In this document: positions 4,173 through 31,442 of the stretch, in pieces | Layout: each line of letters opens with the position of its first letter | Numbering within the stretch: the stretch's first letter is position 1 | DNA from: Fusobacteriota bacterium | Lineage (GTDB): Bacteria; Fusobacteriota; Fusobacteriia; Fusobacteriales; JAAYPW01 | DNA length: 42,967 bases | Reading direction: 5' to 3' | Assembly (NCBI GenBank): GCA_012519615.1 | Contig: JAAYPW010000130.1 | Location: 1-42,967 of the forward strand | Made by a program: the position numbers and the translations under genes | The notes under the pieces: generated by a model | Told to the model about the DNA's origin: nothing | What the model saw: the letters and a program-made list of their open reading frames with translations, nothing else | The model's database searches: none

Positions 4173-6113
4173 ATGTCAAAAGAAACAAAAAGCTTTCAAG
4201 CTGAAACAAAACAGTTATTAGAACTAATGATTCACTCAATATATACTCATAAAGATGTTTTTTTACGTGAATTAATATCGAACAGTTCTGATGCTATTGA
4301 TAAAATTAAATTTAAATCATTAACAGATGTATCAATATTAAATGGAGACGATGATTTTCATATTTATCTAAAACCAGATAAAAATGTTAATACACTTTCA
4401 ATTATTGATAACGGTATTGGTCTTACATATGATGAATTAGTTGAAAATCTAGGTACAATTGCAAAATCTGGTTCAAAAGCATTTGTGCAACAGTTAAACG
4501 AGATGAATGAAACAAGTAAAAGTGATATTGACATTATAGGTCAATTTGGTGTTGGATTCTATTCTGCATTTATGGTTGCAAATAGAGTTACTGTTATTAC
4601 AAAATCTGCATATTCAGATAAAGCTTATAAATGGGAATCTACTGGTGATGGTACTTATACAATCGAAGAAACAAACAGAGATTCACGTGGTACCACAATT
4701 ATTCTTGAATTAAGAGAAAATGATGCTGATAATGAGACAACATTTGATGAATATACTGAAGAATATAAATTAAGAGAGTTAATTGGTAAATACTCTGATT
4801 ATGTGAGATATCCTATTAAACTTGACATTGAAAGAGAAGAGATTCCAAAAGATGAAAATGGAAAACCTATAGATGGTGCTACTGCTGAAACAGTAATTAC
4901 TACTGAAACACTTAACTCTATGGTTCCTTTATGGAAAAAAGATAAAAACAGTATAACTGATGAAGAGTATAATAATTTTTACAAATCAAAATTTCATGAT
5001 TGGATTGATCCTCTTGATAAAATTCACTTTAAAGTTGAAGGAAATATTGAATATACAGCATTATTATATATACCATCAAAAGCACCATTTAATTTTTACT
5101 CAAAAGATTTTACTAAAAATATTCAATTATACACAAAAAATATATTTATAATGGATAACTGTGATGAATTAATTCCTGATCATTTTAGATTTGTAAAAGG
5201 TTTAGTAGATTCATCTGATTTTTCATTAAATATATCAAGAGAGATTTTACAACAAAATAAACAATTAAGGGTAATTAGTAAAAATCTTGAGAAAAAAATT
5301 ATCTCTACACTGAAAGAATTTCAACAAAACAACCTTGATAAATATGCTGAATTTTGGAAAGAGTTCGGTGAAGCTATTAAAGGTGGAATTTATAATGATT
5401 TTACATCACAAAATAAAGAAAAACTTGAAGATCTACTAATTTTTTCTACCTCTGATTCTGATAAATTTTCTACTTTAGAAAATTATCTATCACGAATGAA
5501 AGAAGGACAAGAATTTATATACTATGTTGCAGGTGAAAATAAAGAAGCTTTAGAAAAATTACCTCAAATGGAATTAGTAAAAGATAAAGGCTTTGAAGTT
5601 ATATTCCTTTTAGATAGAATTGATGAGTTTATGATAGATAGAATGAATGAATATAAAGATAAAAAATTCAAATCAATTACAAAAGGTGATCTTGATTTCG
5701 TAGATAATGAAAAAAAAGAGGAGATTAAAGGGATTGAAACAGAAAATAAAGATCTATTAGATAGAATAAAAAAATCTCTTGATAATAAAGTTTCAGGAGT
5801 TAAAATTTCTAGTAGACTTAAAACAAGTCCTGTTTGTATAGTTACAGATGAAAACGGATTAAGTCTAGAGATGGAAAAAATTATGTCTGAATTACCAAAT
5901 ATGAGTAATGCAAAAGCAAATAAAATATTAGAAATTAATCCTTCTCACAGTATTTTTACAAAATTAAAATCAATTTATAACGAAGACCAAAATAGTCCTT
6001 TATTAGATGACTTTAGCTATATTTTATACAATCAAGCACTATTAATTGAAGGCTTTAAAATAGAAGATCCTGTTTTATTTTCAGAAAAACTTACAAAAAT
6101 AATGGTTGGATAA
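4173..6113 (+). CDS. htpG: molecular chaperone HtpG (Hsp90)
   Basis: Cytosolic Hsp90 ATPase chaperone, 646 residues, slightly longer than E. coli HtpG (624). The N-terminal GHKL ATPase domain shows ELISNSSDAIDK (Asn and Glu for Mg-ATP), DNGIGL, GQFGVGFYSAF and RGTTIILEL. The middle domain follows, with NFYSKDF and ISREILQQNK (conserved Arg contacting ATP). The C-terminal dimerisation domain ends near KIMVG, and no eukaryote-type MEEVD tail is present. Start is the ATG 9 nt after AAGGAGG (4157-4163). It is preceded by its own promoter and CIRCE element and followed by a terminator, so it forms a monocistronic heat-shock unit. HrcA control of htpG is less usual than control of groESL or dnaK. 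Confidence 0.98.
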   Translation: MSKETKSFQAETKQLLELMIHSIYTHKDVFLRELISNSSDAIDKIKFKSLTDVSILNGDDDFHIYLKPDKNVNTLSIIDNGIGLTYDELVENLGTIAKSGSKAFVQQLNEMNETSKSDIDIIGQFGVGFYSAFMVANRVTVITKSAYSDKAYKWESTGDGTYTIEETNRDSRGTTIILELRENDADNETTFDEYTEEYKLRELIGKYSDYVRYPIKLDIEREEIPKDENGKPIDGATAETVITTETLNSMVPLWKKDKNSITDEEYNNFYKSKFHDWIDPLDKIHFKVEGNIEYTALLYIPSKAPFNFYSKDFTKNIQLYTKNIFIMDNCDELIPDHFRFVKGLVDSSDFSLNISREILQQNKQLRVISKNLEKKIISTLKEFQQNNLDKYAEFWKEFGEAIKGGIYNDFTSQNKEKLEDLLIFSTSDSDKFSTLENYLSRMKEGQEFIYYVAGENKEALEKLPQMELVKDKGFEVIFLLDRIDEFMIDRMNEYKDKKFKSITKGDLDFVDNEKKEEIKGIETENKDLLDRIKKSLDNKVSGVKISSRLKTSPVCIVTDENGLSLEMEKIMSELPNMSNAKANKILEINPSHSIFTKLKSIYNEDQNSPLLDDFSYILYNQALLIEGFKIEDPVLFSEKLTKIMVG

Positions 6114-6118
6114 AAAAG

Positions 6119-6150
6119 AAACCCAATGGTTTTTACCGTTGGGTTTTTCT
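6119..6150. terminator. bidirectional terminator between htpG and murJ
   Basis: AAACCCAATGG (6119-6129) pairs with CCGTTGGGTTT (6136-6146) through a 6-nt loop. A U-rich tract follows on the plus strand and another lies on the minus strand. It serves both convergent genes and overlaps the last codons of murJ. Confidence 0.85.
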
Positions 6151-7692
6151 TTTTTTTATATAATTTATACAAAGATCTAATATCATTCTAAATTCTTCTA
6201 TCTTAAAAAAATAGATTAATAAAAGATATACTATTCCCCCTACTACTGTAGATATCATAAAAGAAATTATTATGCTTAATTTCAATTTTATTAACAATAT
6301 ATTAAATAAACAATGTATAATTACTCCCATTATAATTGAACTGAATAAGCATTTCACTGTACAAATTAATGATTTTGATAATCCTAAAGAACCAATTTTT
6401 CTTTTTAACAAGAATAATATCATAAAAGAAGAAAAAAATGCCGATATTCCAGTTGCTAATGCAATTCCACGATGTTCCATAGGGCCTATTAAAATAAAAT
6501 TAAATGATACGTTAATAACTACACCTAAACTACTTATTATTAAAGGGGTCTTTGTGTCTTGTAAAGAGTAAAAAACATTTTGTATTAAATGACGTATTGA
6601 TGAAAAAGTCATCCTCATTATTGTATATACAAGCGCTCCACATGTCATTAGAGTAGCTGTTTCGTTAAATTTTCCCCTCTCAAATACAATTTTTATAATT
6701 GGTTCGGATAAAATTATTATAGCGATTGTTGATGGAATTGTAATTATTAATATTATATTTATACTATGTATTATTAACTTTTTTAAATTAATAAAATTAG
6801 ATTTTGAAACTTCCTTTGAAAAAATTGGATATGTAACCGTTAAAATTGCTCCTATTAATATTCCCCTAAAAGAAACTGCAAGTTGTTCTGCATAATTTAA
6901 AGCTGAAATACTTCCATCTTTCAATGTTGATGCCATTGATTTATCAATAACTGTATTCAAATCAGTTATCCCTATACTTAATAATATTCCTGGGATTAAA
7001 TACATTATTTTCTTTATATAATTACTTTTAAGATTTATATATAGTGAATATTTAAACTTAAATTTATTTATACTATAAATTTGTAAAAATATTTGTGAAC
7101 CAGTTGCAATTACAAATGCAATCATTAAACCTTTAACTCCAAAAATAGTTGAGTACACAATTAAAAATATAATTTGAATTAGATTAAATGGATAACTAAT
7201 AACAGATGTTTCCTTAAAGCTCTCCTCGCTTTGCAAATAACCTCTTAAAACACCTTGAATACTTGCAAAAAATATAGTTGGTAGTCCGATTCTCATAAGC
7301 GTTATACCTAATTCATACTGCTCTTTAGATTTAAATCCTATCCCTACGATTTTCATTATATATGGTGACATAAAATAAGATATTACTATTAATAGTAACG
7401 ATACTAACATAAATATATTTAATATATTATTTGTTTCCCTTATTTTTGACAACTTTCCATCTTTTTTCTCTATATCTGATAAAATAGGAATTACAATAGT
7501 ATTTAAAGTATTTGTCACCATAACTGTAAATAAGCTAATAGATGCTATTGCTACAAAATAAGTATCTGTTTTGGCATTTGATCCAAATTTTGATCCTATT
7601 AATAGTTCTCTAAAAAAACCTAAGATCCTTCCAAAAAATCCAAGAATTATCATTATGGCAATAGTCTTTGCTGTTTTTCCTTTCTTAGACAT
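6133..7692 (-). CDS. murJ: lipid II flippase MurJ (MviN/MOP family)
   Basis: Polytopic membrane protein of 519 residues with about 14 hydrophobic segments, the size expected for MurJ, which moves lipid II across the cytoplasmic membrane for peptidoglycan synthesis. The N-terminus has the family signature GFFRELLIGSKFGSNAKTD and TNTLNTIVIPI, a Gln/Arg-rich loop near SIQGVLRGYLQ, and a basic C-terminal tail. The frame can be extended to 7746, but GGGGGA lies 6-7 nt before the ATG at 7692 and MSKKGKTAKT is the usual kind of N-terminus. A glycosyltransferase lies upstream on the same strand, so a role in exporting another polysaccharide precursor cannot be excluded. Confidence 0.85.
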   Translation of the reverse strand: MSKKGKTAKTIAIMIILGFFGRILGFFRELLIGSKFGSNAKTDTYFVAIASISLFTVMVTNTLNTIVIPILSDIEKKDGKLSKIRETNNILNIFMLVSLLLIVISYFMSPYIMKIVGIGFKSKEQYELGITLMRIGLPTIFFASIQGVLRGYLQSEESFKETSVISYPFNLIQIIFLIVYSTIFGVKGLMIAFVIATGSQIFLQIYSINKFKFKYSLYINLKSNYIKKIMYLIPGILLSIGITDLNTVIDKSMASTLKDGSISALNYAEQLAVSFRGILIGAILTVTYPIFSKEVSKSNFINLKKLIIHSINIILIITIPSTIAIIILSEPIIKIVFERGKFNETATLMTCGALVYTIMRMTFSSIRHLIQNVFYSLQDTKTPLIISSLGVVINVSFNFILIGPMEHRGIALATGISAFFSSFMILFLLKRKIGSLGLSKSLICTVKCLFSSIIMGVIIHCLFNILLIKLKLSIIISFMISTVVGGIVYLLLIYFFKIEEFRMILDLCINYIKKRKTQR

Positions 7693-7943
7693 TTTATTCC
7701 CCCGTTTGATTATAAAACAAATTGTTTTATCTTCACTAATATTCATAAAAATATTATTAATTCAATATAAATTTATAATTAATAATATTAAAATCATACT
7801 TAATCCATATATATTTTCTGCGTTTTAACCAATTCTAAAACTACCACAATAAATGGATATAACATATTTAAAATTTATATAAAAGAATAATTTAAAAACT
7901 GATGAGCTCTAATTTTGTATAAATTTTACTACAATTTATATTT

Positions 7944-9209
7944 TTAAATATTATTCTCTATATCTTTTATTATTTCTTCCAATTTATCTGTTAAAATTTT
8001 AAAATCAAAATCCTTTGCAAGTTTTAGGCTATTTTTTGAGTATGTATCATATTCTTTTTTATCCATATTATTAAACCTTAGTATCCCTTCATATAATGCT
8101 TCCACAGAACCAGATTTAACAGTAATGCCAACTTTATTCTCCTCAAGCATATCATAACCAGAATCAAAATTTGATAATGTAGGAATTCCTGATGCGAAAT
8201 AATCAAACATCTTATTTAAACTAAGACCATATTTATATAACGGTATATTTTTCCCTGTATATATATTTAAATTGGATTTTGTTAATATATTTGGTATATA
8301 TTTTTTTTCAACTAACCCTTTAAATTTGACATTTTTTAAATTATTTTCTTCCACATATTTTTCTAATTCTGGTTTTTTATATCCATCACCAAATAATATA
8401 AATTTAATATTATTGTATCCATTATCTCTAAACATTTTAGCTGTTTCTACTATATAATTCAATTCATTTGCAACACCCATTGATCCTGTATAAACAATTT
8501 TATAATGATAGTTATCATCTAAATCAATATCTTCATATATATTATTTTCCTTATTATAATTAAATTCATCTATATCAATACCATTATTAATATAGTTTGC
8601 TTTACTCGGATCAATTCCAATTTCCTCGAGATAGTCCTTTCCACCTTCCACAGTAAATACAAGTTTATCAGCTTTATTATATATAAATTTTTCCAATTTA
8701 AATAATAGAGTTGCAATTAAGCCTTTCCTTTTCAATCCCCCCATATGTATAAGTACTTCTGGCCATAAATCTCTTGTTTCAACAATTAATTTTACTTTAT
8801 AACGTTTAGCTAAAAAATACCCAGCTAGCCACGTTAATGGATGCGGCGAGGTTGCAAATATTACATCTGGTTTTTCTATATTGATTTTTTTTGTTAATTT
8901 TATAACTTGCTTAAAATACTGATACATATTAATTATCCTTTTTTTACCATTTCCATAATAATTATTGGTTTTTAAAAATATAAATGGTACATTAGAATAT
9001 TTTTTTACAATATAATCCTCATTTGTGGTTATCATATTCTCATTTGTATAATGTAATGCACTTGATGCAAAAATTGTTGTGTTATATCCTCTATTATTTA
9101 GATTTTTTGCAAACATATAATGCCTATTTAACGGGCCTAACTCTGGTGGAATCCCATAATGATTTAACATCCATATATTTTTTATTTTATTTTCTTTTTT
9201 GCTATTCAT
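7944..9209 (-). CDS. glycosyltransferase family 4
   Basis: GT-B fold retaining glycosyltransferase, 421 residues. The N-terminal acceptor domain begins WMLNHYGIPPELGP, with the Gly/Pro-rich loop and HY pair seen in WbuB/WcaI-like enzymes. PDVIFATSPHPLT follows. The C-terminal nucleotide-sugar domain has VYTGSMGVANEL, FILFGDGYKKPEL and SLNKMFDYFASGIPTL, the usual sugar-nucleotide binding region, although the first Glu of the classical EX7E is not obvious. No membrane anchor. ATG start with AGGGGT upstream. Probably acts at the inner face of the membrane in polysaccharide or glycolipid assembly; donor and acceptor are unknown. It sits 250 bp upstream of murJ on the same strand. Confidence 0.88.
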   Translation of the reverse strand: MNSKKENKIKNIWMLNHYGIPPELGPLNRHYMFAKNLNNRGYNTTIFASSALHYTNENMITTNEDYIVKKYSNVPFIFLKTNNYYGNGKKRIINMYQYFKQVIKLTKKINIEKPDVIFATSPHPLTWLAGYFLAKRYKVKLIVETRDLWPEVLIHMGGLKRKGLIATLLFKLEKFIYNKADKLVFTVEGGKDYLEEIGIDPSKANYINNGIDIDEFNYNKENNIYEDIDLDDNYHYKIVYTGSMGVANELNYIVETAKMFRDNGYNNIKFILFGDGYKKPELEKYVEENNLKNVKFKGLVEKKYIPNILTKSNLNIYTGKNIPLYKYGLSLNKMFDYFASGIPTLSNFDSGYDMLEENKVGITVKSGSVEALYEGILRFNNMDKKEYDTYSKNSLKLAKDFDFKILTDKLEEIIKDIENNI

Positions 9210-9780
9210 ATTTTACCCCTTTATTTTTTATTTAATTATATCCTATTATACAATATATCTGCTTAAATTTCTAGACTATTTTTCTATTTATTATATAAAT
9301 GCTAAAATAAAATTGTTTTTTCTAGTACTTAGTATTATTCAATAATATTTTTTAATTAAATTTTAGCTTTACCATAATTCATTGTAAATGTATGCCATAT
9401 TCTACCATAAATAAATTGATATTCTAAATTAAAACATTATTTCATCACGTTCTTTCGCTTCGAACAGATTTTTTTTAAGTTCATACAGCAGGATTTTTTA
9501 TAAATCAATTATATAAACCATAATTCTATATAAATAGTTAGTATATTAATACTATGATGAAATAAAAATAGCAGATAAATATAAAAATAAAAAATCCTTC
9601 TCCTATATTTGGATTGAGACTATCTTAAATAATATTATAATTATATTTTATCCAGTATTTAATACAGCATTTATTTTTATGATAAATTAAGTCATAATTT
9701 TTTATACAAAAATATATTAGCTTTTATAATATCTAGTTTCACTTGAAATTTTTTTCATAAAATAATTTTACCTTATATTA
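9210..9780. other. gene-free AT-rich stretch
   Basis: No credible gene. It holds an inverted repeat TAGTAT-ATTA-ATACTA (9539-9554). It also holds a short minus-strand patch (about 9429-9497) of distinctly higher GC that reads as a C-terminal coding tail (ELKKNLFEAKERDEIMF then stop) with no start, possibly the remnant of a lost gene. Confidence 0.5.
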
Positions 9781-9819: not shown

Positions 9820-12660
9820 TTATTCTACTAATAAATATCTTCCTTGTAATTTTCCCATTGGAACTTGGAATGACCCGCTTCCTGTGAAAGATTGCCCTGT
9901 TAGTAAATCTGTTAATTTTGATCCGCTTACAGATACATTAAATGTCTCATCAGATGTTCCTATATTTAAACAGAATACAATTTTTTGTCCGCCATCTTCT
10001 TTTAAGTCAATATATTGATTTCCTGCAGCTTTAAGGTTAGTTCTTTTCCCACCCCATAATGCTTTATATTCTGATCTAGTAGACATAACTTTATTTGTAT
10101 AGTTAATTAAATCTTGTTCATCGCTTGTAAATCCACTAATTTTACCATCATTTCTTGCAACGTGCATAGATTTTAAATCTGAATTTCCAGTTTTAGAACC
10201 CCACTCTTCACCATAGTACATTGTTATTGGTCCTGTAAATGCACCTAGATAAGCAATGGCTGCTTTATGTCTTTCCCAATAGTTATTATTTTTATTTGAA
10301 AAGTTAACTAGGTCTCCAAATCTTGCAACGTCATGGTTTCCAATAAATAAGTTTGGATGTGCCCAACTAGGATACATGCTATGATCATAATTTAAATTTG
10401 ATGCGTCATTTACTTCTTTTCCATATTCTTCACGTGCTAATGTTTGTACAATTCTATATCTTGTAGGGAAATCGAACGCTGAATGAATACCTTGCACACC
10501 TTTACCATACGTGTTTTCTACAATACCGTCTTCACCTTCCCAGTCTTCTCCTACTTGATAACCTAAAATACCCCATGTATCTCCATTTGCTTTATTCTCT
10601 GCTACCGCTCTTTCTATCTCTATTCTTATATCATCCCAATAGAAATTACCTGCTCCTTGCCCTTGATGTCCTGCATTTCCTGGTCCTAATTGGTATGATT
10701 GGTCAAATCTCCATCCATCAATTTTATATTCTTTTATCCAATAATATACAACATCTTTATAGAATTGTAGCGTATTTCCACCATCTTGATAGTTTACCGG
10801 ATTACTTCCTGAAGGAGTTTTTCCGCTAATTGGTGATGGTGCAAGATTACTACCTGCATTATGCCCAAGTACTCCATCTAATATTACATATATCCCTTTA
10901 TCATGTGCTTCATTTACAAGTCTTCTAAATGTTTCATTTGATCCAAAATGTGGGTCAATATTAAAATAGTCATTTGCAAAATACCCATTATGTGCTTGTT
11001 GCCCGCTATATGTATTGAAAATCGGTGTCATCCATATAGCATTCATTCCTAACCCTTTTATATAATCAAGCGAGTTTATTACACCTTGTAAATCTCCATT
11101 TGCTCTATATCCTGCCCATTGCCAGTCATATCCTATTGATGGATCTCCGTCCATAAATGAACAAACCATTATTTGGTATATTCTTAAATTATCTATATCA
11201 TTTACTACTACTGGTTCAGAGTCATCTCTTTTAATTTGTAAAGTCTTTGTTTCTGGTCCATCTTCATTTGTAGCTGTAACAGTTAATGTAGCTGTACCTT
11301 GATCATTTACATAATCTCCTACCATTATTGTAGCTGTATTTCCAGTGAAATTTATATCTTTACTTCCAATTTTTGCAGTTTTCGATGATATTGTTCCCCC
11401 GGATACACTAATTGTAATTGTATCTGTACCTTTATATTTAGCTTTTTCTGGACTAATTGTTATTTTAACCATTGTATCAGATACTGGTTTACCAGAACTT
11501 TTATTTCCATTTGCATCCCAAGTTACATCACCAATTGTAGCAGTCTGATCATCTGCAACTACTTTATCACCATTTTTTATTGGTAAATATAGAATACTGT
11601 CTTTTCCCTCAACTATAACTTCATAATAATCACTATTTTTTGAATATTTATCTGTTATTGTTTTACCTGGCCATGCTCCAAATAATTTTGTATTTGCATC
11701 TACCCAAGCATATATTCCTGTTGCAAAATCTTTATGAAAATATATATTAATTGTATTTTTAATAACAACTTCTTTTGTAACATTTATTGTAACATTATCT
11801 TCTAACGCCCCTGAATATGCAGTTAGTACAACGCTATTATCCCCTTGTATCCCTTTAACACTTACTCCATTAGAGGTTGCTGTATATGTAACAACACCTT
11901 CTTTTGATACTTTCCAGCTAACATTACTATCAGTTGTATTATCAGAATAAGTTGCAATAGCTTGTACATTTATATTATTTCCCTCTTTTACTTCAAGATT
12001 TTTTGATCCTACAATCTCTATTTTTGTAAGAGTTTTAGCAGCAATTGGACCACTTTTCCCATAATTATTTGTAAATACTATAAAATCAAATAAATTAACT
12101 TTTCCATCTTTTGAAACTTGACTATATATACCACTCCATGTTCCTGTTCCTAATGCTGCAGGAGCAATATCATAGTTTGTATCATTAGAACCATATTTTG
12201 ATTTTAATAAATTTAAATCTGTTAAATCAACTTTATTATCATTATTATAATCTCCTAATAAAATATTTGTATCATTTCTTTTTACATTTTTAGATAATAA
12301 TATTTTTTCTGATATTGAATCTGTTAATTTCACATTTACGTTGTTTTCTGTATTATTAATTGTAAAAAGATTATCACCTTTTTTAATACCATCTTTTTTT
12401 GCAATTACTACTAGTATACCATTTTCAGTTTTCTTTACAATTGAAATTTCACTATTTACTTTTAAATTATCTGTATTAATTTCGTGATTAAGTAGAATTT
12501 CTACCCCCTCATAATTATCTTCTGCTATTATACTAATATTATCCCCATTTCTTACAAGTGTTACACCATCTGCACTATCTTTTTTATCTTTAACATTTCC
12601 AACACATGCTGTAAAGGTAAACATTATTGCCAACATTAAAAACAATACTATTTTTTTCAT
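9820..12660 (-). CDS. modular extracellular alpha-amylase lipoprotein (GH13)
   Basis: 946 residues. Lipoprotein signal peptide with lipobox FTAC (Cys19), so anchored outside the cell. Domains: a beta-rich region (about 30-125); two dockerin-like calcium repeats (GDYNNDNKVDLTDLN at 136-150 and SKDGKVNLFDF at 183-193); a bacterial Ig-like domain (about 210-295); a CBM26-like starch-binding module (about 303-395, with YFHKDF, YAWV and FGAWPGK); another Ig-like domain (about 397-477); the GH13 barrel (about 490-860); and a C-terminal beta domain. Catalytic residues are present: nucleophile D653 (GWRFDQ), acid/base E705 (VGEDW) and D777 (GNHDVARF); the first GH13 block reads DGVLGHN. Predicted to hydrolyse alpha-1,4-glucans at the cell surface. 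AGGGGG precedes the ATG. Monocistronic, between its terminator and a long upstream gap. Confidence 0.93.
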   Translation of the reverse strand: MKKIVLFLMLAIMFTFTACVGNVKDKKDSADGVTLVRNGDNISIIAEDNYEGVEILLNHEINTDNLKVNSEISIVKKTENGILVVIAKKDGIKKGDNLFTINNTENNVNVKLTDSISEKILLSKNVKRNDTNILLGDYNNDNKVDLTDLNLLKSKYGSNDTNYDIAPAALGTGTWSGIYSQVSKDGKVNLFDFIVFTNNYGKSGPIAAKTLTKIEIVGSKNLEVKEGNNINVQAIATYSDNTTDSNVSWKVSKEGVVTYTATSNGVSVKGIQGDNSVVLTAYSGALEDNVTINVTKEVVIKNTINIYFHKDFATGIYAWVDANTKLFGAWPGKTITDKYSKNSDYYEVIVEGKDSILYLPIKNGDKVVADDQTATIGDVTWDANGNKSSGKPVSDTMVKITISPEKAKYKGTDTITISVSGGTISSKTAKIGSKDINFTGNTATIMVGDYVNDQGTATLTVTATNEDGPETKTLQIKRDDSEPVVVNDIDNLRIYQIMVCSFMDGDPSIGYDWQWAGYRANGDLQGVINSLDYIKGLGMNAIWMTPIFNTYSGQQAHNGYFANDYFNIDPHFGSNETFRRLVNEAHDKGIYVILDGVLGHNAGSNLAPSPISGKTPSGSNPVNYQDGGNTLQFYKDVVYYWIKEYKIDGWRFDQSYQLGPGNAGHQGQGAGNFYWDDIRIEIERAVAENKANGDTWGILGYQVGEDWEGEDGIVENTYGKGVQGIHSAFDFPTRYRIVQTLAREEYGKEVNDASNLNYDHSMYPSWAHPNLFIGNHDVARFGDLVNFSNKNNNYWERHKAAIAYLGAFTGPITMYYGEEWGSKTGNSDLKSMHVARNDGKISGFTSDEQDLINYTNKVMSTRSEYKALWGGKRTNLKAAGNQYIDLKEDGGQKIVFCLNIGTSDETFNVSVSGSKLTDLLTGQSFTGSGSFQVPMGKLQGRYLLVE

Positions 12661-17480: not shown

Positions 17481-18212
17481 CTATTTAAAAATAATAAAAC
17501 TAAATAATACCGTTATGTTATTTAAAACATGACAAATTAATGTAGGATATATTGATCTATATTTCAAATAGTAGGCTGCATAAAATGCACTATAGATAAA
17601 ATAAATAAGTAAATTATTTATCTGTAAATGAATTAATGCAAATATCAAACTAGAATATATTATTATAGATATATTACTGTTTTTTTTTAATAATCCTTCT
17701 ATTAATAAATATCTAAAAACAATTTCTTCTAAAATTGGTATAAATACACCTAAAATCATAAAAAATAAAATTTTAAAATAAATATTTTTTTCGTAAATTA
17801 AAATATTTTTAATAAAATTACTACTATTCATATTATATTTAATTAAAAATACAATAATATAATTAAATATAGATGTAATTATAAATAATTCTATCCCCTT
17901 TAAAATAAGAAAACTATTTATTTTAGTAAATATCTTGTTTAATAGTTCTGTTTTAATAATAACAAAAATTGAAAACAAAAATATAAATAATTGAAATATT
18001 ATATAATGTCTACTATTTATAAAAAAACTATTAAAAAAAGAAATTTTTCTTAAATAATTAAAAAAAATTAAATTAATTATTGGAAAACTAATTATATAAA
18101 TTATAAAAATTAAATAATATCTGTTTAAATATCTATTTTTCAATTTATCATTTTTAAAGAATATAATTATTTGTACAAAAAATAAAAAAAGAGTTACAAT
18201 CAAATTATTCAT
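17481..18212 (-). CDS. CPBP-family intramembrane glutamic protease
   Basis: Polytopic membrane protein, 243 residues, about eight hydrophobic segments, very Ile/Phe/Asn-rich. It carries the three CPBP (Abi/Rce1) motifs: EEIVFRYLLIEGLL (catalytic Glu pair and Arg), FALIHLQIN and CHVLNNITV. In Gram-positive bacteria such proteins often act in bacteriocin maturation or self-immunity, but nothing nearby supports a specific role. ATG start with AGGGGA. It begins 29 bp after the rpsI terminator with no clear promoter, so it may depend on read-through. Confidence 0.88.
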   Translation of the reverse strand: MNNLIVTLFLFFVQIIIFFKNDKLKNRYLNRYYLIFIIYIISFPIINLIFFNYLRKISFFNSFFINSRHYIIFQLFIFLFSIFVIIKTELLNKIFTKINSFLILKGIELFIITSIFNYIIVFLIKYNMNSSNFIKNILIYEKNIYFKILFFMILGVFIPILEEIVFRYLLIEGLLKKNSNISIIIYSSLIFALIHLQINNLLIYFIYSAFYAAYYLKYRSIYPTLICHVLNNITVLFSFIIFK

Positions 18213-26538: not shown

Positions 26539-27660
26539 TCAATTATCTTCAATTTCATCAAATTGTAATGAAAAATCATCTACTTTAATTGTTGTTAACT
26601 CTATATATCCGGGTTTATCTATATTAATTACTCTTTTTGCATGATTCATAACAAAATTATCATAAAGATTTCTTATTAATCTTCCATTAGCAAAATTTTT
26701 ATTTTTTATAAATATTTGTTTTTCTAAATATATACGTACTTTTTTTATTACTTTTTCATCCATTGTATAATCATTTTTCTTACACATAGATAGTAGAATT
26801 TCTTCTAGTTCATTTGAATCATAGTCTTCAAACTCTATAAATGTATTAAAACGAGATCTCAACCCCGGATTAGATTCAAAAAAATTATTCATTAGATCGG
26901 TGTATCCAGCTACAATAACAACTAAATCATCTCTATGATCTTCTAATGCTTTTGTAAGTTCTGTTAAGCATTCTTTCCCATACGAATCAGAATTATCATT
27001 TTCTGTAATGCTATAAGCTTCAGCAATAAATAAAACTCCGCCTATTGATTTTTCAATAACAGACTTTACTTTTAATGCCGTTTGTCCTTGATACCCAGCT
27101 ATCAGATCCGTTCTAGACACCTCAATAAAATGCCCTTTTGACAACAATCCAATTTGCTTATAAATTCTACCAACAATTCTTGCCACAGTAGTTTTCCCCG
27201 TACCAGGATTTCCTGTAAATGCAAGATGTAATGTATTTTTTGTCGAATACAATCCATTTTCTATACGTAATTTTTGGATTTTTTGATATGCGATTAGATC
27301 ATTAACTTTTTCTTTTATAGTTCGAAGCCCGATAAGAGAATTTAATTCACCCAATAAATCTTGAAGTGTTCTTGTATCATCATCAATATCTTTTTTTTCT
27401 TTATTACATATATCCAGAAGTTTTGCATATCCATAATAATTTATTATACAATTTTTTAAAGATATTGCAACCTTCTTAATCTCTTTTGAATTTAAATTTG
27501 ATTCTGTAATACTTGTAATTTGTTTTAACAACGTAATTGTTAATTTATCATCATTATTTTCAGTTATGCCACTAGCAAGTTTTGTTATTTCCCCGCCAGA
27601 AACTGTTAAAGCATCCAGTATAGAAGCTGTATTGTTTAATGCTTTTATGTATTTTTCCAT
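26539..27660 (-). CDS. CbbX/SpoVK-type AAA+ ATPase with altered Walker B
   Basis: 373 residues. The first 100 residues are helical with no recognised domain. The AAA+ core begins at GELNSLIGLRTIKEKV, the usual lead-in of the CbbX/SpoVK group. Walker A is GNPGTGKTT (150-158). Walker B reads GGVLFIAEAYS, where this group has FIDEAYS: the Mg-coordinating Asp is Ala213 (codon 27024-27022, GCT), while the catalytic Glu214 stays. Sensor 1 region VIVAGYTDLM, arginine finger NPGLRSRFN, sensor 2 NGRLIRN. Such ATPases form hexamers that remodel proteins. Last gene of the unusual operon: its ATG shares a base with the stop of the preceding coiled-coil gene, so the two are translationally coupled. No strong terminator follows it. 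Confidence 0.93.
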   Translation of the reverse strand: MEKYIKALNNTASILDALTVSGGEITKLASGITENNDDKLTITLLKQITSITESNLNSKEIKKVAISLKNCIINYYGYAKLLDICNKEKKDIDDDTRTLQDLLGELNSLIGLRTIKEKVNDLIAYQKIQKLRIENGLYSTKNTLHLAFTGNPGTGKTTVARIVGRIYKQIGLLSKGHFIEVSRTDLIAGYQGQTALKVKSVIEKSIGGVLFIAEAYSITENDNSDSYGKECLTELTKALEDHRDDLVVIVAGYTDLMNNFFESNPGLRSRFNTFIEFEDYDSNELEEILLSMCKKNDYTMDEKVIKKVRIYLEKQIFIKNKNFANGRLIRNLYDNFVMNHAKRVINIDKPGYIELTTIKVDDFSLQFDEIEDN

Positions 27661-28448
27661 TATATCTCCTTCGCAAAAAGTAATATCATCTCAATAATTA
27701 CTAATCCAATAGCTATACCAGAAATCCAGTAAGCATATTTAATTTTTTTTGTTAATAATGTAATATGCTCTTTATTTTTTACTGTAAGTTCTTTTATTTT
27801 AAATTTATCTTGAATTATCGTATTTAACCTCGCGGTATATTTTTCATTAAATTGATCGATTTTTTCTAAAAGTAGTTTTTGTTCTTTAGCAGTATGTAAT
27901 ATTATTTCATTATTTGATAAAATGATATCAATATTAGAAAAATACTTATAATTATCAATTTTCTCCTTATTGTTTTTTATCTTCATCACTATTTTTTTTA
28001 TATTATCAAAATTTTTATTAATTTTAATTTGGTGAGCATCCAATTTATTCTGTTGTATTCTAAGTTTATTATTATGTTCATTTATTATTCCTTGTTGAAT
28101 TCTTACATCGTTACTTGTTTTTTCTACCGATTTGATAGTAATCATGATACTTGCCAAATACTCTTTATCTAATGCTTCAAATGTATTGTATATTTCTCCA
28201 AACTCGCTAATTATATTATTATTTGTTCTATTTATATTATTTAAAAATCTCTGAATAGCATTGATTCTATTATTTAATTCTACGCCACTTACTTTATGGT
28301 CGAACAAATTAAACAATCCGCCTTTAGCCTCTACACCTTCAATCGTTAATTTTAAAGATTCATTTTCATAAAATTTTTTAATCCTATTTTTTGCTAATTT
28401 AAAATTATTTCTTTTAATTTCAATTTTCTTCACTTTACTTTCCCCCAT
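27660..28448 (-). CDS. coiled-coil membrane protein, paralogue B
   Basis: 262 residues, long helices rich in K, N, E and I (coiled coil about 60-225), and one C-terminal membrane span (YWISGIAIGLVIIEMILLFA), so a tail-anchored cytoplasmic coiled coil. It matches the preceding gene product almost word for word in its core: EFGEIYNTFEALDKEY, SVEKTSNDVRIQQ, QNKLDAHQI. Unlike that paralogue it lacks an N-terminal hydrophobic region. Family not recognised. ATG with GGGGGA-like upstream sequence. Lies between its paralogue (52 bp) and the AAA+ gene (1 bp overlap); it is a plausible substrate or anchor of the ATPase. Confidence 0.82.
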   Translation of the reverse strand: MGESKVKKIEIKRNNFKLAKNRIKKFYENESLKLTIEGVEAKGGLFNLFDHKVSGVELNNRINAIQRFLNNINRTNNNIISEFGEIYNTFEALDKEYLASIMITIKSVEKTSNDVRIQQGIINEHNNKLRIQQNKLDAHQIKINKNFDNIKKIVMKIKNNKEKIDNYKYFSNIDIILSNNEIILHTAKEQKLLLEKIDQFNEKYTARLNTIIQDKFKIKELTVKNKEHITLLTKKIKYAYWISGIAIGLVIIEMILLFAKEI

Positions 28449-28500
28449 ATGCTAATATAAACTTTTATGATTTCTCTAAACCATTGTCCGTATTTATATG

Positions 28501-29499
28501 TTATTTGGTTAAAATTAACACTAATCCAATAATAGCACATCCTATGGCTCCGCCAGAAATTAAATATGCATATTTAGTCTTCTTTTCTAAATATTCAATT
28601 GTATTGTATTTTTTTGTTGCATCTTCAGTAATTTGTTCCTCCTCATTAATTAGAAAATATAATGAATCTAATTTACCAGTATTTTCCGCATTATTCATTT
28701 CGATATCCTGTAAATGTTTTTTTTGTTCTTCGATCACATTTAACATTGCTTTATAATCTGAATATATTTTATCAATCTCTTCAAAAGAATCATAACTATC
28801 CATTTTTTCTTTATATTTATGTAATGCCGTAATAATTTTGGATATATTATCTATACTTTTTTCTATTTCTATTTGATGAGCATCTAATTTGTTCTGTTGC
28901 ATTTCAAGTTTATCATTATGTTCTTTCAAAGTATCTTGTTGAATTCTTACATCATTACTTGTTTTTTCTACTGATTCAATAGTAGTAAGAATACTTGCTA
29001 TATACTCTTTATCTAGTGCTTCAAATGTATTATATATTTCTCCAAATTCGTTAATTACATTATTATTTTTGATATTTAAATCAATTATATAATCTTGAAT
29101 AATTTTTATTTTATCATTTAGTTCTTCACCAGTAACTTTATGCGAAAAAAATATATCTTGTGTTTTTACATTTCCAATCTCTAATACTGCTGTTTCTATT
29201 TCTGAAAATTCTTTAAGACGATTTTTTGCTAATTCAAAACTCTGTCTTTTGATTTGCATATTTTTGAATGATTTTTTCATTACAGCCCTAACTATTTGAA
29301 ATCTATTAGAAACATTTTCTACATAATCAAGATTATCATTTCTAATAAAATTTACAATATAGATAATCCCGTTTACAATAGAAATTAATCCATATTTTAT
29401 AATTGTCCAAATCGATCCCAAAATTATCATAATTAACTCTATAATAATAGTCAAAATAATTAAAATAATATTCCCTATAATATTAAAAATTTTTTTCAT
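28501..29499 (-). CDS. coiled-coil membrane protein, paralogue A
   Basis: 332 residues. A long hydrophobic N-terminal region (about 1-50, two likely spans), a coiled coil from about 80 to 300, and a C-terminal span (YAYLISGGAIGCAIIGLVLIL). The central block EFGEIYNTFEALDKEY, SVEKTSNDVRIQQ and QNKLDAHQI is shared with the next gene, so the pair arose by tandem duplication. The long coil between membrane segments suggests a membrane-tethered assembly or sensor. Family not recognised; remote likeness to long coiled-coil toxic-anion (TelA-like) proteins is only an impression. Starts 10 bp after the preceding membrane frame. Confidence 0.82.
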   Translation of the reverse strand: MKKIFNIIGNIILIILTIIIELIMIILGSIWTIIKYGLISIVNGIIYIVNFIRNDNLDYVENVSNRFQIVRAVMKKSFKNMQIKRQSFELAKNRLKEFSEIETAVLEIGNVKTQDIFFSHKVTGEELNDKIKIIQDYIIDLNIKNNNVINEFGEIYNTFEALDKEYIASILTTIESVEKTSNDVRIQQDTLKEHNDKLEMQQNKLDAHQIEIEKSIDNISKIITALHKYKEKMDSYDSFEEIDKIYSDYKAMLNVIEEQKKHLQDIEMNNAENTGKLDSLYFLINEEEQITEDATKKYNTIEYLEKKTKYAYLISGGAIGCAIIGLVLILTK

Positions 29500-29509
29500 A
29501 ATTCCCCCC

Positions 29510-30166
29510 TTAATTCCAACTTTTTAGTAAATCGTCTAAATCTTTACTTGCTTTATCAATCTTTTCATTTGTTTTTATATCTTCTTCATCAATTATTATT
29601 TTATTTTCTTTATCTGAAAAATCGCCAACGAAATCCTCCATAATATTACTTAACGATTCTTTCATTATTTTAGCAGCTTCTCGATGTCTGCTAGAAATAT
29701 TCTCTAGAGTATTCGTTTTTGTATTTTCAAACTTAACTTCATTTAAAATTTGTAGTTTATATTGAGTACACAATACTTCATTACCTTTATCAATTTGTGC
29801 CTTATCATTTTCTCTTAACATTTTCTTTTCAATCAATTTATCTATTAGATACATTACTATTGCACCTATTACACCAGAAACAACAGTTCCTAAAAAAAGC
29901 CCTACAATATTTGCTAAACTTCCTAGTAATGGAATTTCAATTGCAAAAGCTGGTATTGCCATTAATCCTTTTTCTATTACTTCTCCTAGAACTAATGCTC
30001 CTCCTGTAACTAAAGCACCCATAATTATTTTACCAACTTGTGCTACTTTAATACTAAAAGGTTTATTTGCATTCTCTTTATTTGTTAAATATTTAAATGC
30101 ATCAACAAAAGACGAAAAACCCTGTTTAATAAAACTAATAAGTTTTTTAAATGGTCTAAGTACTAT
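29510..30166 (-). pseudogene. C-terminal membrane half of the HNH-membrane protein, cut off by a TGA
   Basis: This frame continues that of the HNH protein directly after its TGA (30169-30167): 48 open codons (beginning IVLRPFKKLISFIKQGF) run into the ATG at 30022 with no further stop. It encodes a glycine-rich membrane segment (VTGGALVLGEVIEKGLM, EIPLLGSLANIVGLFLG, VSGVIGAIVMYLI) and a charged tail ending KDLDDLLKSWN. The ATG at 30022 has only a poor ribosome binding site, so independent translation looks weak. As one chain with the upstream part the protein would have 565 codons. A single G-to-T change (GGA to TGA) would explain the break. From memory, unverified, uncharacterised proteins of this size carry both halves with Gly near this point. 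Confidence 0.75.
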
Positions 30167-31207
30167 TCAAAATATTTCTGTAATAATAGTTCCACCTACT
30201 GATTTTGCCCCTGATTCTATGAAACTTCGTATTTTTGAACAAAAATTTTTAAAAGCCTTTTTCATCTCATCCATAAAATTAGTTAAAGATTTTTTCTTAG
30301 ACTTAAAGTACCTTACAAGTGCATTCATAATCTCTTTAAGCATAGCTGATAATGCTTGTATAGACATTACTTTTAATGCGTCATGACCAGCTTTTTTTGC
30401 TGTTTCCTTAGCCACCCCTTTATATATTTCTTGATTTATTGCTCGTCGTGCTTTTTTATCAACTTTTTTCATTAAATTTGGGTCAGCATCTAGTTTATCT
30501 TGTAATCTCTTGTCATTTTTTTCTCTTGCATTTTTTTTATCTGTTTCAGACATATTTGATTCATCGATTTTCTTATTAGCATGTTCATTTTGTTTCCTTA
30601 AATCTTTTTCTCTTTGTTCGCTATTTTTATTATAATCATCGACACTTTTTGCACCTTTACTTTTATTTAAGGATTCATTTGTAGCATTTAGATTTTCGTC
30701 TTTATTCGCTAAAACTTCTGTTTTAATATTAGCTTGTTTTCTCCTTGTGTTCTCGTAAATTTCCTTTCTGGAAACTGTATGATCCAAATTTGCCTTATCA
30801 TTTTCACCTAAATTTTTACCAGTATATTCATCCTTTAATATACCTCTCCCGTGCTTTTCCCTTATTTTATTATTTGCATCCCTGTATTTTTTGTCTTGCA
30901 TTATAGTTGTAGCTACTTCATCATATGTTTCTGGATTTTCTCTATCATATTTTTGAATTAAAGACTCCTCGGTAACGTCTAAACCAATTTGGTTAGTGAA
31001 CTGTTTCCAAACCTCGTCTATTACTACTTTACTGAGAGCATCTGGATTTCCAATTTTATCTCTTTCTTCTTTAAGAAGTTCTAAATCTGCTAATTCTGCT
31101 TCCAATTCAATTTCTAGTTTATCATTTAAAGCTTCTAAATCGTCTAATTCAAATGAATCTTCATTCAGATTTTCATTATTATTCATAACTGCATTTTCGT
31201 TTGCCAT
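30167..31207 (-). CDS. HNH-nuclease-like protein, N-terminal part up to in-frame TGA
   Basis: 346 residues to the TGA. Acidic helical N-terminus (about 15-55, with ELEAELADLELLKEERDKIGNPDAL). The nuclease-like region follows: DEYTGKNL, then NLDHTVSRKEI (D142, H143), and after 28 residues ENLNATNESLNKSKG, which is the DH...N...N-x-x-KG layout of HNH/beta-beta-alpha-metal endonucleases. The usual zinc-binding Cys pairs are absent. A very charged linker (190-255) leads to amphipathic helices (270-340). Expected to be a cytosolic nuclease head on a membrane stalk encoded past the TGA. First gene of the unusual operon. ATG with GGAGG 7 nt upstream. The nuclease assignment rests on motif spacing only. 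Confidence 0.8.
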   Translation of the reverse strand: MANENAVMNNNENLNEDSFELDDLEALNDKLEIELEAELADLELLKEERDKIGNPDALSKVVIDEVWKQFTNQIGLDVTEESLIQKYDRENPETYDEVATTIMQDKKYRDANNKIREKHGRGILKDEYTGKNLGENDKANLDHTVSRKEIYENTRRKQANIKTEVLANKDENLNATNESLNKSKGAKSVDDYNKNSEQREKDLRKQNEHANKKIDESNMSETDKKNAREKNDKRLQDKLDADPNLMKKVDKKARRAINQEIYKGVAKETAKKAGHDALKVMSIQALSAMLKEIMNALVRYFKSKKKSLTNFMDEMKKAFKNFCSKIRSFIESGAKSVGGTIITEIF

Positions 31208-31260
31208 ATTTTTTCCTCCAATTTTATTTATCCTAATCTAAATAATTTAAAATAAATTAA

Positions 31261-31276
31261 TAACCATATATAGTTA
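31261..31276. promoter_or_regulatory. palindrome over the probable start of the HNH operon transcript
   Basis: TAACCATATATAGTTA is a 16-bp palindrome with one mismatched pair. It begins 8 nt downstream of the -10 box at 31289-31284, where a repressor would block initiation. A candidate operator, inferred from symmetry and position. Confidence 0.4.
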
Positions 31277-31283
31277 CAAAAAA

Positions 31284-31313
31284 AGTATAGTTTTTCCTGT
31301 TTTTTTTATTAAA
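31284..31313 (-). promoter_or_regulatory. candidate promoter of the HNH/coiled-coil/AAA+ operon
   Basis: TATACT (31289-31284) preceded after 18 nt by TTTAAT (31313-31308). Moderate match, about 77 nt upstream of the first gene of the operon. Confidence 0.45.
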
Positions 31314-31382
31314 TTCTTGTTTTTTATATAATATTTTCTTTACTCAAAATAATATATATTTTTCTTTTCAATTACAATTTTA

Positions 31383-31414
31383 TAAAAAAAAGATTACTCA
31401 TTAACTGAATAATC
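31383..31414 (-). terminator. terminator between mnmA and the HNH operon
   Basis: GATTACTCA (31392-31400) pairs with TGAATAATC (31406-31414) with one mismatch and a 5-nt loop, followed on the minus strand by eight Us. About 245 bp after the mnmA stop; it isolates the next operon from mnmA transcription. Confidence 0.7.
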
Positions 31415-31442
31415 TCGTTCATGTTTCATTTATTTTATATTT

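Follow-up and report, generated by a model that had tools for sequence, protein, structure and literature searches.

The window analysed here, 42,967 nucleotides of contig JAAYPW010000130.1 from a Fusobacteriota bacterium (assembly GCA_012519615.1), carries on its minus strand an operon for an HNH nuclease with a membrane region, coiled-coil membrane proteins, and a CbbX/SpoVK-type AAA+ ATPase. The operon, its conservation, and its specificity are well supported by gene order and profile comparisons. With slightly more belief than doubt, we interpret the window copy as a decaying representative of a mobile anti-phage or anti-element operon in which the ATPase restrains or resets the membrane-bound HNH nuclease.

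The genes stand directly next to one another in the order nuclease, coiled-coil, ATPase in Fusobacteriota, on Lactococcus plasmids, in Lysinibacillus, in several genomes of the Streptococcus order, and in one further genome from the Lysinibacillus order. When genomes were scanned with the ATPase, 80 loci were obtained (4 with full-length relatives and 76 with relatives of the ATPase domain only), and all of their open reading frames (ORFs) were searched with profiles. Each of the four full-length ATPase relatives has the coiled-coil gene upstream, and the nuclease gene is present at all three of these loci with enough contig; neither gene was found in this search at any of the 76 domain-only loci. 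A preliminary description of the sequence had proposed that the parts form one system, and they do co-occur in other genomes strongly and specifically. Ten fetched regions (L177-L186) have the three genes in order, with L186 stopping inside the coiled-coil gene. The coiled-coil gene has two copies in the window and one at other loci. The features of the window copy are as follows.

31207-30167, 30022-29510, 29499-28501, 28448-27660, and 27660-26539, minus strand: five ORFs
29510..31207, minus strand: HNH-membrane nuclease gene (gene 1), 566 codons including the stop, with one in-frame TGA, pseudogene-like
30167..30169, minus strand: in-frame TGA stop, Gly in relatives (GGA to TGA)
30591..30848, minus strand: HNH segment, residues about 120-205 (DH143, N172, N181, K184), from conserved columns and HNH_4/GmrSD_C matches in relatives
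29828..30046, minus strand: glycine-rich hydrophobic (membrane) region, residues about 388-460, from hydropathy and retained in relatives
29510..29560, minus strand: acidic-leucine tail (...IDKASKDLDDLLKSWN), candidate ATPase recognition tag from its motif distribution, binding being presumed
28501..29499, minus strand: coiled-coil membrane protein 1 (gene 2), 332 amino acids, N-terminal hydrophobic helix 1-43 and C-terminal transmembrane segment 310-332
27660..28448, minus strand: coiled-coil membrane protein 2, 262 amino acids, C-terminal transmembrane segment 238-262, 52% identical to protein 1
26539..27660, minus strand: CbbX/SpoVK-type AAA+ ATPase (gene 3), 373 amino acids, operon-specific N-terminal domain at about residues 1-95
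27022..27024, minus strand: GCT codon for Ala in place of the Walker B aspartate (VLFIAEAYS)
31380..31425, minus strand: hairpin followed by a U-run (-12 kcal/mol, z -4.7), probable mnmA terminator between mnmA and the operon

These coordinates reproduce the gaps of 10, 52, and -1 bp given in the preliminary description, and the strong hairpin and U-run, which a rule-based terminator scan missed, agree with the terminator that it had placed between mnmA and the operon. The candidate promoter that it had named is not supported, the number of promoter-like matches being at chance level (49 versus 48.2 +/- 7.5 expected), and of its five frames the first two are one gene split by the TGA at 30169-30167. 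Reading through this codon gives a product of 565 residues in one frame on both sides, and the nuclease relatives are uninterrupted single ORFs of about 541-600 amino acids. Since relatives carry Gly at the TGA position, a single GGA-to-TGA change would be sufficient. Decoding of TGA as Trp was ruled out: TGA is a normal stop in the window, where it terminates 5 of 37 ORFs, Trp is encoded by TGG (n = 72), and the relatives have Gly. The membrane segment therefore lies in the same frame as the HNH part, as had been proposed, and not in a separate protein, the relatives carrying both in one ORF. The truncated window product would retain the HNH segment and lose the membrane region and the tail.

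Gene 1 encodes an HNH nuclease, with nuclease activity predicted from its conserved motifs. The window protein has the order LDH...NL...NKSKG, and H143, N172, N181, and K184 are near-invariant among the few conserved positions in 33 relatives (about 20-50% identity). The order D/E-H...N...N-x-x-K is kept across these divergent proteins with one exception, L177, in which H is replaced by E. In 13 isolated HNH segments, H, N, N, S, and K do not vary, and just two Pfam families, both of HNH nucleases, recur among the matches: HNH_4 (5 of 13, best E-value 1.5e-4) and GmrSD_C (5 of 13, best 0.0073). The HNH-like layout seen earlier is thus backed by motif conservation and by weak profile matches of relatives; the window segment alone matched no Pfam profile, and no match to the HNH segment was found among PDB sequences. 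The two parts of the interrupted gene match the PADLOC profile PDC-M40B collinearly (ORF5 to positions 74-225, E-value 1.5e-12; ORF4 to positions 400-452, 7e-5), and P0001 matches it with an E-value of 2.2e-17. A search over the genome contigs with a single window protein as query returned no relative. An HNH fragment on the Scybalomonas contig L113 was considered as the missing half of the nuclease at L022 and was rejected as a different protein.

The two coiled-coil proteins with membrane spans are related to each other, as the preliminary description had noted (52% identity). Their matches to ZorA, JetC, LmuB, SNARE, and apolipoprotein models were treated as composition effects. Neither the coiled-coil protein nor the ATPase matched any of the PDC models (none for PDC-M40A at E-values up to 1).

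The ATPase has the AAA domain and lid of the CbbX/SpoVK subfamily, and its earlier assignment as CbbX-type AAA+ is upheld by matches to TIGR02881 (E-value 1.6e-80) and to CbbX structures (about 6e-71). It scores under the curated equivalog cut-offs of both SpoVK (270 versus 423 bits) and CbbX (236 versus 459 bits). The N-terminal domain is matched only by operon-linked relatives: four align over nearly the full length, and most of the others begin at residue 79 or beyond. The Walker B aspartate is present in 15 relatives ([IV]DEAYS) and lost in the window protein (IAEAYS), which, judging from this residue, probably cannot hydrolyse ATP in the normal way. In L185 (4803-5942), the Walker A motif is GNPGTAKT, not GNPGTGKT.

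Fifteen of 16 ATPase-linked nucleases, some of which are closely related to one another, end in an acidic-leucine tail (for example FDEIDSLLQELLD), and the sixteenth nearly does so; the tail is absent from all 18 nuclease relatives without the ATPase, and the motif is matched by 0.3% of random truncation points. The coiled-coil gene is preceded in Lactococcus, L184, and L022 by a gene for a small membrane protein, and all three of these small proteins carry the nuclease-type tail. AAA+ rings are known to recognise tails, as CbbX does on Rubisco and Vps4 on ESCRT-III. By analogy, the acidic-leucine tail is a candidate tag for recognition by the ATPase. We infer a defence role, a complex, tail recognition, a direction in which the ATPase acts, and DNA as the target, as follows. 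The nuclease would be kept at the membrane, complexed with the coiled-coil protein, and the ATPase ring would grip the C-terminal tail of the nuclease and remodel or disassemble this complex, keeping the nuclease off or resetting the complex until infection. DNA entry or a membrane disturbance may then upset the balance, and the nuclease would cut DNA near the membrane.

The same correlation of tail and ATPase (15/16 versus 0/18) would be expected if the ATPase were an activator that, upon infection, unfolded the nuclease or pulled it out of its complex with the coiled-coil protein. Activation of inhibited targets is what CbbX/Rca-type ATPases do, and the two-gene relatives of the nuclease (described below) do without an ATPase, both of which favour this alternative; we consider it rather unlikely. 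The lesions found in the nuclease genes bear on the direction of action. They recur (the window stop, two stops in S. ovuberis, and the His-to-Glu change in L177), and the ATPase frames stay open where the nuclease gene is damaged. This pattern fits a costly effector that needs restraint, as in the restraining role that we favour, and is not decisive between restraint and activation. At L177 (4288-6000), the motif reads MDETVS in an otherwise intact operon, and the loss of the HNH histidine predicts a nuclease-dead copy. The two lesions in the window operon suggest decay, with an assembly error possible at either site in this 158-contig draft, and the window copy is probably decayed and non-functional on the strength of these two codons.

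By sequence comparison, the nuclease genes carry two HNH cassette types on two backbones, and no partner changes alongside. The nucleases of L178 and L181 are 90-100% identical except at residues 121-280 (27-47%), and those of L182 and L183 differ in nearly the same pattern. Conversely, L178 and L182, which have different backbones, are 67-95% identical in the cassette and 32-72% in most of the rest, and L181 and L183 behave likewise. At the DNA level the cassette, exchanged in these two pairs between operons that are otherwise about 95% identical, spans about 480 bp at roughly 31-56% identity, with flanks mostly above 90%, and between cassette types the identity of the coiled-coil proteins and of the ATPases is 93-96%. 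An exchangeable nuclease cassette is also what a polymorphic toxin or secreted competition system would have, with the HNH cassette as the toxin domain and the ATPase aiding export; similarity of the ATPase to EccA of ESX secretion (TIGR03922, E-value 1.6e-62) points the same way. However, the cassette occupies a central and not a C-terminal position in the nuclease, and no gene varies with it, so that the operon has no cognate immunity gene. Further, the ATPase fits SpoVK and CbbX better than EccA and secretion genes were not recognised nearby, and we give this explanation little credence. Such exchange of cassettes, with the backbone unchanged, amounts to a natural experiment on what phages or inhibitors select on.

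The operon is mobile. In the Leptotrichiaceae-like genomes G014 and G020 it lies between rnhB and yraN, and in two genomes of the same genus rnhB adjoins yraN and the insert is absent, which indicates a discrete accessory unit. The nuclease profile found strong copies in 10 of the 398 Streptococcus-order genomes and 3 of the 261 Lysinibacillus-order genomes (both counts including genomes used as centres) and in 3 of 98 Fusobacteriota; the profile gave no strong copy over 391 genomes of the class of L022. At L184, an integrase-like ORF (4666-5838) lies near an apparent rpsI (4188-4580) and just before the operon, which is possibly on a small integrative element. A housekeeping membrane-remodelling or envelope operon with a vestigial HNH motif would account for the copies that sit among core genes. 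This seems very improbable, given the sporadic occurrence in all sampled groups and absence from closely related species, the copies on plasmids and next to genes resembling those for integrases or recombinases, and the near-invariance of the HNH residues at about 20% identity. The plasmid copies, the HNH effector with a partner, and the recurrent loss of the effector would also suit a toxin-antitoxin-like operon or one that maintains plasmids or other elements, whereas the many chromosomal copies, the three conserved genes including an AAA+ protein, and the defence neighbours do not, and this explanation is likewise improbable. Elsewhere in the window, the ORF at 17481-18212 (243 amino acids) has 13% G+C, the window being otherwise mostly at 19-34%.

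The link to defence islands for which the preliminary description had suggested a survey holds for L023, L024, L003, and the two-gene relatives in E. coli; it fails for the window and several other copies. L023 has as neighbours Tiamat TmtA (E-value 1.8e-102), a bSEFIR-like protein, PDC-S02 (3e-129), and PDC-M26A (2e-47); L024 adjoins AbiEi/AbiEii, and L003 a type I restriction enzyme. Two-gene relatives of the nuclease that are free of the ATPase are present in 377 of 5,426 E. coli genomes, where the nuclease is accompanied by a helix-turn-helix (HTH)/WYL regulator and the glycine-rich partner PDC-M09A. The three E. coli islands examined are beside a type I-E CRISPR system, a helicase-flanked DNA methyltransferase, or Dpt genes, and two of the three adjoin a tRNA gene and an integrase. 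No window protein matches PDC-M09A, and the coiled-coil protein was rejected as a homologue of this partner family (hhalign probability 0.9%).

The two-gene partner (L006 5689-6783, L106 8860-9936, and L187-L193) has a near-invariant Gly/Ala-rich stretch, ASTGTAISALSGAAATNAALAALGGGSLAAGGGGMAGG, from Proteobacteria to Bacilli, which looks like a membrane-inserting hairpin. In E. coli and on Klebsiella plasmids (L005, L006, and L108), the nuclease family is annotated as 'cobalamin adenosyltransferase' and the partner as 'chemotaxis protein', names for which the family searches gave no support. L016, whose genome belongs to the same genus as two carriers of the operon, has the two-gene type at 4263-9684 with a GTPase gene nearby and a YkgJ-type cysteine-cluster gene immediately downstream, and a protein at 10133-10732 with a stretch visually resembling ASTGTAISALSGAAATNAALAALGGGSLAAGGGGMAGG. 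The phage-borne forms found are two-gene relatives only, in Aeromonas phages LAh10 (two entries) and D9; in the 260-kb LAh10 (L008) the relative is at 4850-7446. Scans of viral contigs gave a single partial two-gene relative and no relative of the ATPase type.

Overall, the defence role is moderately supported. Several points weigh against our interpretation. The nonsense codon and the lost Walker B Asp mean that the window copy itself is likely not working, and the HNH profile matches are weak (best E-value 1.5e-4). AlphaFold models from shallow alignments were poor and uninformative (predicted local distance difference test score, pLDDT, of 44 for the nuclease and 55 for coiled-coil protein 1), and support neither a fold nor a complex. 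Several copies, including that of the window, are among housekeeping genes and not in a defence island. Finally, the tail pattern was defined after the tails had been viewed, so that it stands as a strong description and not as an independent test.

Should the operon protect against phage, AAA+ remodelling of the Rubisco-activase type would be connected to the control of a membrane-bound nuclease. The PDC-M40/PDC-M09 candidates, of which roughly 7% of complete E. coli genomes carry a relative, and the ATPase variant would then become one family with a testable cassette, tail, and ATPase. The operon is probably an ATPase-equipped variant of an uncharacterised candidate anti-virus system. PDC entries are described as unpublished candidates (PMC11811056). 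In the literature searched, no paper was found that names PDC-M40 or PDC-M09 or that describes a gene set of nuclease, coiled-coil protein, and ATPase. The preliminary statement that no described system with this set was known agrees with this search for the gene set, and has to be qualified for the nuclease family, which is already a PADLOC candidate as PDC-M40B.

The closest known counterparts include the PADLOC candidates themselves. The nuclease is shared by homology, PDC-M40B matching 28 of the 33 family members and PDC-M09B a few, and the defence-island setting of some copies is shared, whereas the relatives have PDC-M09A with WYL/HTH regulators or YkgJ proteins and no ATPase. With CbbX and SpoVK, the window ATPase has in common the AAA+ domain and lid, and it differs in its scores below the cut-offs, extra N-terminal domain, and other neighbours. 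Zorya has a ZorA/ZorB membrane complex and, in type II, the HNH protein ZorE. The combination of a membrane-tethered coiled-coil component with a nuclease is similar by analogy only, as no MotA/MotB homology was seen and the ZorA matches are weak coiled-coil matches (E-values 0.0009 and 2e-4). The HNH region has weak similarity to SspE (E-value 0.0018 over the SspE C-terminal domain) and to GmrSD (GmrSD_C in 5 of 13 segments); unlike those systems, no DUF262 half and no modification-sensing partner were detected here, and a membrane domain is present instead. Tentatively, and with more doubt than conviction, the operon may represent a new class, in which a dedicated CbbX-like AAA+ ring gates a membrane-anchored immune nuclease with an exchangeable HNH cassette by reading its C-terminal leucine tag. 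Such a class would resemble type I restriction systems, in which specificity domains are exchangeable as the HNH cassette is here, and its tail recognition would be reminiscent of Vps4 on ESCRT-III tails.

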